A DNA stretch of 40,085 nt from Meiothermus cerbereus DSM 11376. GTDB taxonomy: Bacteria > Deinococcota > Deinococci > Deinococcales > Thermaceae. The stretch spans positions 1 to 40,085 of the forward strand of contig NZ_JHVI01000028.1 of assembly GCF_000620065.1 (NCBI RefSeq), in the 5' to 3' direction. Positions 32,862 through 32,985 of this stretch are shown one piece after another. The first letter of the stretch is position 1. Each line of letters begins with the position of its first letter. Under the pieces are notes generated by a model. It searched no databases. It was not told the DNA's origin and saw only the letters and a list, made by a program, of their open reading frames with translations. A program made the position numbers and the translations under genes.

Positions 32862-32893
32862 TAAAAGCGGTGGGCGGCACTAAGGCCGCCCAC
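32862..32893 (-). terminator. Attenuator hairpin in the pheST leader
   Basis: On the minus strand, a perfect 9-bp stem GTGGGCGGC/GCCGCCCAC with loop CTTAGT is followed by CGCTTTTAG. It lies after the leader ORF and 31 bp before the pheS start. An upstream GCCCGC, which begins right after the leader stop codon, can pair with GTGGGC of the left arm and so could prevent the hairpin. Confidence 0.7.
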
Positions 32894-32917
32894 GAGAGAG
32901 TGTCATCTCCCGCGGGC

Positions 32918-32944
32918 CTAGCTAAAAAACCACCCCCCAGCCAT
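32918..32944 (-). CDS. pheST leader peptide (MAGGWFFS)
   Basis: ATG 32944 opens eight codons, Met-Ala-Gly-Gly-Trp-Phe-Phe-Ser, ending in TAG. The two Phe codons (TTT TTT) are consecutive, and the frame sits about 5 nt from the predicted transcript start and 25 nt before a terminator-like hairpin. This is the layout of amino-acid attenuation, known for the E. coli pheST operon. I infer that ribosome stalling at the Phe codons when charged tRNA-Phe is scarce allows readthrough into pheS. No ribosome-binding site is visible; leaderless initiation would be required. Confidence 0.65.
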   Translation of the reverse strand: MAGGWFFS

Positions 32945-32955
32945 ACTTGCGGGTT

Positions 32956-32985
32956 AGCCTACCACCAGGGTCAAACCTGGGTCAA
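32956..32985 (-). promoter_or_regulatory. pheST promoter
   Basis: On the minus strand TTGACC (32980-32985), 18 bp, then TAGGCT (32956-32961). A second TTGACC lies at 32969-32974. Transcription would begin near 32949, a few bases before the leader ATG. Confidence 0.55.

Follow-up and report, generated by a model that had tools for sequence, protein, structure and literature searches.

A probable ribosome-mediated attenuator with a minimal, near-leaderless phenylalanine leader peptide upstream of pheST in Meiothermus cerbereus

The window analyzed here is the whole stretch of 40,085 nucleotides from Meiothermus cerbereus DSM 11376 (contig NZ_JHVI01000028.1). Its minus strand carries pheS and pheT, the genes of the two chains of phenylalanyl-tRNA synthetase, preceded by a leader region with a promoter, a short open reading frame (ORF) and two predicted hairpins, hp1 and hp2 (Table 1). 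The identity of pheT is presumed; its position and reading frame are given by the sequence. A complete 16S rRNA gene (38589-40077, plus strand) is located near the end of the window.

Table 1. Features of the pheST leader region and operon of Meiothermus cerbereus
Feature	Position	Strand	Remarks
-35 box TTGACC	32980..32985	(-)	Nearly all Thermaceae orthologues have TTGACC/TTGAGN and a spacer of 17-18 nt
-10 box TAGGCT	32956..32961	(-)	18-nt spacer to -35; 11 nt upstream of leader ATG
Leader ORF MAGGWFFS (ATG GCT GGG GGG TGG TTT TTT AGC TAG)	32918..32944	(-)	8 codons, predicted to be near-leaderless
Phe codon pair TTT TTT	32924..32929	(-)	Proposed stall site; invariant among Meiothermus-type genomes
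Leader segment GGGTGGT	32929..32935	(-)	In an untranslated leader, can pair with 32872-32878 in the hp2 3' arm
hp1 (regions 2:3), GCCCGCGGGAGA/TCTCTCGTGGGC	32888..32917	(-)	12-bp predicted antiterminator hairpin
hp2 (regions 3:4), GTGGGCGGC/GCCGCCCAC	32870..32893	(-)	9-bp GC hairpin, candidate terminator
T run CGCTTTTA	32862..32869	(-)	3' of hp2; weak U-tract
pheS Shine-Dalgarno GGGAGG	32836..32841	(-)	
pheS, phenylalanyl-tRNA synthetase alpha chain	31737..32831	(-)	ATG at 32831
pheT, phenylalanyl-tRNA synthetase beta chain	29350..31704	(-)	3' of pheS in the operon

The first-pass annotation of this DNA had described the promoter, the 8-codon ORF, the 9-bp GC hairpin and the pheS ribosome-binding site, and all of them were found where it had placed them. 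Other details needed correction. The pairing GCCCGC:GTGGGC, proposed as the antiterminator, is real but constitutes only the outer half of the 12-bp hp1. The T tract after hp2 exists, but comprises merely four T located three nucleotides away from the stem. The leader, considered leaderless, indeed has no Shine-Dalgarno sequence and would be nearly so, but its ATG lies 11 nt from the -10 box and transcription is predicted to start about 3-5 nt upstream of it. The leader promoter, matching the consensus at only 8 of 12 positions, escaped a generic promoter scan, but its hexamers, with their spacing, are found again in the orthologues.

The 5' arm of hp1 begins immediately 3' of the leader stop codon. 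Hairpins hp1 and hp2 compete, because the six bases GTGGGC are common to both, and the predicted fold of the leader region exceeds its shuffles in stability by 4 s.d. A T-box or another known RNA family was rejected, with no Rfam match in this stretch or in 12 orthologous regions. A -10-like box, TAGACT, is present between hp2 and the pheS Shine-Dalgarno sequence (32854-32859, minus strand). Boxes of this type recur as GGTAGACTGG in M. ruber/taiwanensis-type genomes, and the TAGACT box could serve as a second promoter escaping attenuation.

The region is probably a ribosome-mediated transcription attenuator of pheST whose Phe leader peptide is minimal and near-leaderless. RNA polymerase would start at the site predicted above, and a ribosome would load without a Shine-Dalgarno sequence. 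With ample Phe-tRNA, the ribosome would reach the stop codon and cover the 5' arm of hp1; GTGGGC would be free, hp2 would form and transcription would stop before pheS. When charged Phe-tRNA is scarce, the ribosome would stall at TTT TTT; hp1 would form first and sequester the base of hp2, allowing read-through into pheST. A Phe-starved ribosome pausing on the leader thus probably turns pheST on. If the leader carried no ribosome, the GGTGG segment within it would pair with the 3' arm of hp2 as well, and read-through would be the default. The analysis shows the parts of this attenuator, their conservation, the pair-keeping changes in hp1, the mutual exclusion of the hairpins and, by folding, which way the switch turns; from these we infer the start site, translation of the leader, termination and the response to Phe.

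Equilibrium folding was performed at 37 °C, and 55 °C gave similar values; the ribosome was represented by a mask that extends to 12 nt from the first base of the A-site codon. When the first Phe codon occupies the A site, the mask ends at the leader stop codon and hp1 is left free; the stalling geometry, previously called tight, is workable in silico. Once the stop codon has moved into the A site, the mask covers the 5' arm of hp1, as had been proposed. The probability of the full hp2 in M. cerbereus is 0.00 without a ribosome, 0.34 with the first and 0.61 with the second Phe codon in the A site, and 0.94 at the stop codon. It is higher at the stop codon than at the first Phe codon in 20/20 genomes of the clade described below, clearly in 17 of them. 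The equilibrium preference between the stalled and finished states is modest, 0.2-2.2 kcal/mol in most genomes and about nil in L092, L093 and L100. Since hp1 would be made first, kinetics should sharpen this contrast. Termination is the least certain step, because CGCTTTTA is a poor U-tract in M. cerbereus and the tract is worse still or nearly absent in L092, L093 and L095.

Read-through of hp2 could also be achieved by a frame shift at a hungry Phe codon, after which the shifted ribosome would traverse hp2 and block termination. The +1 frame past the last Phe is open beyond hp2 in many genomes, including M. cerbereus. In L096, L130, L136, L139, L147 and L169, this frame is closed ahead of hp2 or inside it, and no slippery site is conserved at the codon preceding Phe. 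This hardly credible explanation was rejected, the open +1 frame not being conserved.

The PheS searches yielded 50 genomes of the family, with named relatives including Meiothermus taiwanensis, M. hypogaeus, M. rufus and M. luteus. The clade set comprises 20 Meiothermus/Calidithermus/Allomeiothermus-type genomes with an intact region upstream of pheS; G019, in which pheS is cut at the contig end, was left out. The comparison of Meiothermus pheS leaders suggested in the first-pass annotation bore out its expectation: the short ORF, the Phe pair, hp1 and hp2 are kept in all intact upstream regions (20/20), and the leader is not a product of chance. The leader peptides have the form M..GxWFFx or a close variant, two ending with GRFFR, and the stop codon is TAG. 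In every one of the 20 genomes, only 2-4 nt lie between the first base of the stop codon and the beginning of the hp1 5' arm, and hp1 and hp2 overlap by 3-6 nt. Among the 19 distinct sequences, 99.1% of hp1 cells are paired, with 5 double-change cells; both covariation and double-change cells exceed all 500 shuffles. Hairpin hp2 is mostly invariant, its double changes being confined to one basal pair. Each of 14 Meiothermus genomes has a single occurrence of the core pattern of the element, and no copy elsewhere was found among the 111 Deinococcota genomes searched. The pairing of the leader with the 3' arm of hp2 (core GGTGGT:GCCGCC) is kept in 19/19 sequences, UG being replaced by CG in two. 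As a selected feature it was demoted to a secondary one: its fold cost is only mildly above that of shuffled leaders, and shuffled G-rich leaders perform nearly as well.

Such conservation could also be expected of an RNA- or protein-binding structure formed by the two hairpins and TTTTTT, with the short ORF being incidental. TTTTTT and GGTGG are (nearly) invariant at the nucleotide level in the M. cerbereus clade, and GGTGGT is able to pair with hp2. The Phe codons never vary synonymously within this clade, so that coding and RNA constraints are inseparable from that clade alone. Against a binding structure, the sister family (f4), which we take to be perhaps Oceanithermus and Marinithermus, retains Phe while TTC and TTT interchange; its leaders are MRPYGFFFP, MRTCGFFFSN, MAAFFFP, MAAFFFS, MRGLFFG and similar. 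Other signs of coding are the swaps of ATG with GTG and of TAG with TGA, and leader lengths that change by whole codons. Phe codons are, moreover, the expected cognates at this position, because the downstream gene encodes Phe-tRNA synthetase. An incidental ORF is accordingly regarded as very improbable, and the attenuator reading requires that the leader be translated.

Translation would begin at or close to the 5' end of the transcript. In 50/50 leaders scored, a -10 box is located 6-12 nt upstream of the start codon, with a -35-like hexamer 16-19 nt farther up, which would make the leader (nearly) leaderless with respect to the predicted start site; there is no room for a Shine-Dalgarno sequence. 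Relatives with 6-8 nt between the -10 box and the start codon would be fully leaderless. Leaderless mRNAs are abundant in Deinococcus deserti, where they account for about 60% of genes (PMC9031893).

The distribution of such leaders was followed with a detector requiring TANNNT 5-12 nt before ATG or GTG, an ORF of 6-14 codons, and FF or SPF. It was positive in 44/54 non-Thermus Deinococcota pheS regions, in none of the 27 Thermus-group genomes (including G049, a separate genus within the same family), in none of the 71 pheS regions from other phyla, and in 15/5400 dinucleotide-shuffled upstream regions; because the detector was built from part of the same genome set, the controls carry the weight, not the 44/54. 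Phe leaders mostly have 7 to 12 codons in the phylum, most of which carries them, and 7-10 in Thermaceae and the sister family. More distant families have a short promoter-proximal Phe leader with a hairpin at its stop codon. Thermus, which the first-pass annotation had included in its proposed comparison, lacks the whole leader. The absence there is a lineage loss and not a refutation of the attenuator reading. In 24/27 genomes of the Thermus group (L102-L128), a TANNNT box is located 7 nt (once 9) before the pheS start codon; judging by this arrangement, the leader looks to have been lost and pheS itself to have become leaderless.

Families f2, f3 and f5, one genome of which is presumably Truepera radiovictrix, have leaders such as MRSLLASPFIT, MGSRLASPFIR and MVNALSPFIRFA; a stop-codon hairpin comes next and, after it, a terminator with a U-rich tail. 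Most of these leaders (L142-L166) contain a Ser-Pro-Phe motif (TTCGCCNTTTA), usually with one Phe codon, and the number of Phe codons alone does not account for this motif. The two hairpins are abutting in f4 and separate in f3 and f5. The mask test revealed no consistent switch in f3, f4 and f5; two f2 genomes (L143 and L144) do show the mask-dependent switch. A hidden antiterminator partner for hp2 in f3, f4 and f5 was rejected, since no constantly placed upstream segment beats shuffles.

These families also bear on the possibility that hp2 is no real terminator, and that the leader and hairpins control pheS translation or leader-coupled re-initiation. Such control would agree with the U-tract that follows hp2 being weak or missing in Thermaceae and in f4, and with hp2 ending only about 8-12 nt before the pheS Shine-Dalgarno sequence in f4. 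Nevertheless, f2, f3 and f5 share the plan and possess canonical U5-U8 tracts, and in M. cerbereus hp2 ends 28 nt before the Shine-Dalgarno sequence and leaves it uncovered. Translational control is thus considered unlikely.

According to another view, leaderless Phe leaders are phylum-wide, the overlapping-hairpin switch operates only in Thermaceae and part of f2, and Truepera-type and related lineages control termination otherwise. The latter would combine a Ser-Pro-Phe leader, usually with one Phe, with a hairpin at the stop codon and a canonical terminator apart from it; for instance, a stall with Pro in the P site could act while the stop-codon hairpin affects RNA polymerase. This broader reading is put forward tentatively, as more doubtful than probable. 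The leader plan is shared across families; the hairpin switch is not.

The features of a trp-type attenuator found here are an ORF with cognate codons, predicted masking of the antiterminator by a ribosome at the stop codon and, in Meiothermus-type genomes though not in f3, f4 and f5, mutually exclusive hairpins. Together with the sequence comparison, the mask folding supports the first-pass reading of ribosome-mediated attenuation. The E. coli pheST leader has about 14 codons, five of them for Phe, and its own Shine-Dalgarno sequence. It resembles the Meiothermus leader in the operon served, the cognate Phe codons in the leader peptide and the competing antiterminator and terminator hairpins. 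In contrast, the Meiothermus leader has 8 codons, two of them for Phe, and no Shine-Dalgarno sequence; its hp1 begins at the stop codon, and read-through is favoured if the leader is left untranslated. The likeness is probably convergent. Firmicutes sense Phe-tRNA charging at the same operon by T-box leaders, which bind tRNA directly and require no leader peptide, unlike the Meiothermus leader with its peptide ORF and without an Rfam T-box match.

Attenuation of pheST in gamma-proteobacteria has been mentioned in the literature (PMC1262725). In Streptomyces lividans, leaderless leader-peptide attenuators precede leuS, trpS, thrS and trpE, and likewise stand ahead of aminoacyl-tRNA synthetase or biosynthesis genes; they belong to another phylum and to other amino acids, the leuS leader has 12 codons (MRAVRLLLSEPR), and no Phe leader is given (PMC8079986). 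The transcript of Sinorhizobium meliloti trpL begins at the ATG of the leader ORF, and the classical trp attenuation model has been described for it (PMC7298713); that leader has 14 codons, is a Trp leader and serves trpE(G), in contrast to the 8 codons, Phe and aminoacyl-tRNA synthetase operon of Meiothermus. A partial literature search found no pheST attenuator in Deinococcota and no report on attenuation with a leader peptide in Meiothermus. The kind of switch is known, and its very short leader form appears to be undescribed; on our reading, the pheST leader is a minimal, leaderless and new version of an attenuator type already known.

In the M. cerbereus genome (G000, contig C3; L184:2042-2086, minus strand), a Trp leader, MLRFAHVKGWWWPG followed by a stop codon, with three adjacent Trp codons, precedes trpE. 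It is located 9 nt after a CAGACT box and is followed by a GC hairpin with TTTTTATT; by its layout, it is a putative classical trp attenuator, and having it in the same genome speaks for the attenuator reading of the pheST leader. No similar leader was found before pheA of this genome.

The leaders of 7-10 codons in Thermaceae and the sister family are shorter than those of the attenuators compared here. They raise the question of how a ribosome could load without a Shine-Dalgarno sequence onto a 27-nt ORF soon enough to determine what becomes of an RNA only about 85 nt long, at temperatures of 50-60 °C. Because the hairpins overlap in some lineages and not in others, the need for hairpin competition is directly testable, with Thermus as a natural loss. 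If the attenuator reading is true, Deinococcota have a Phe-tRNA-sensing pheST switch built independently of that of E. coli.
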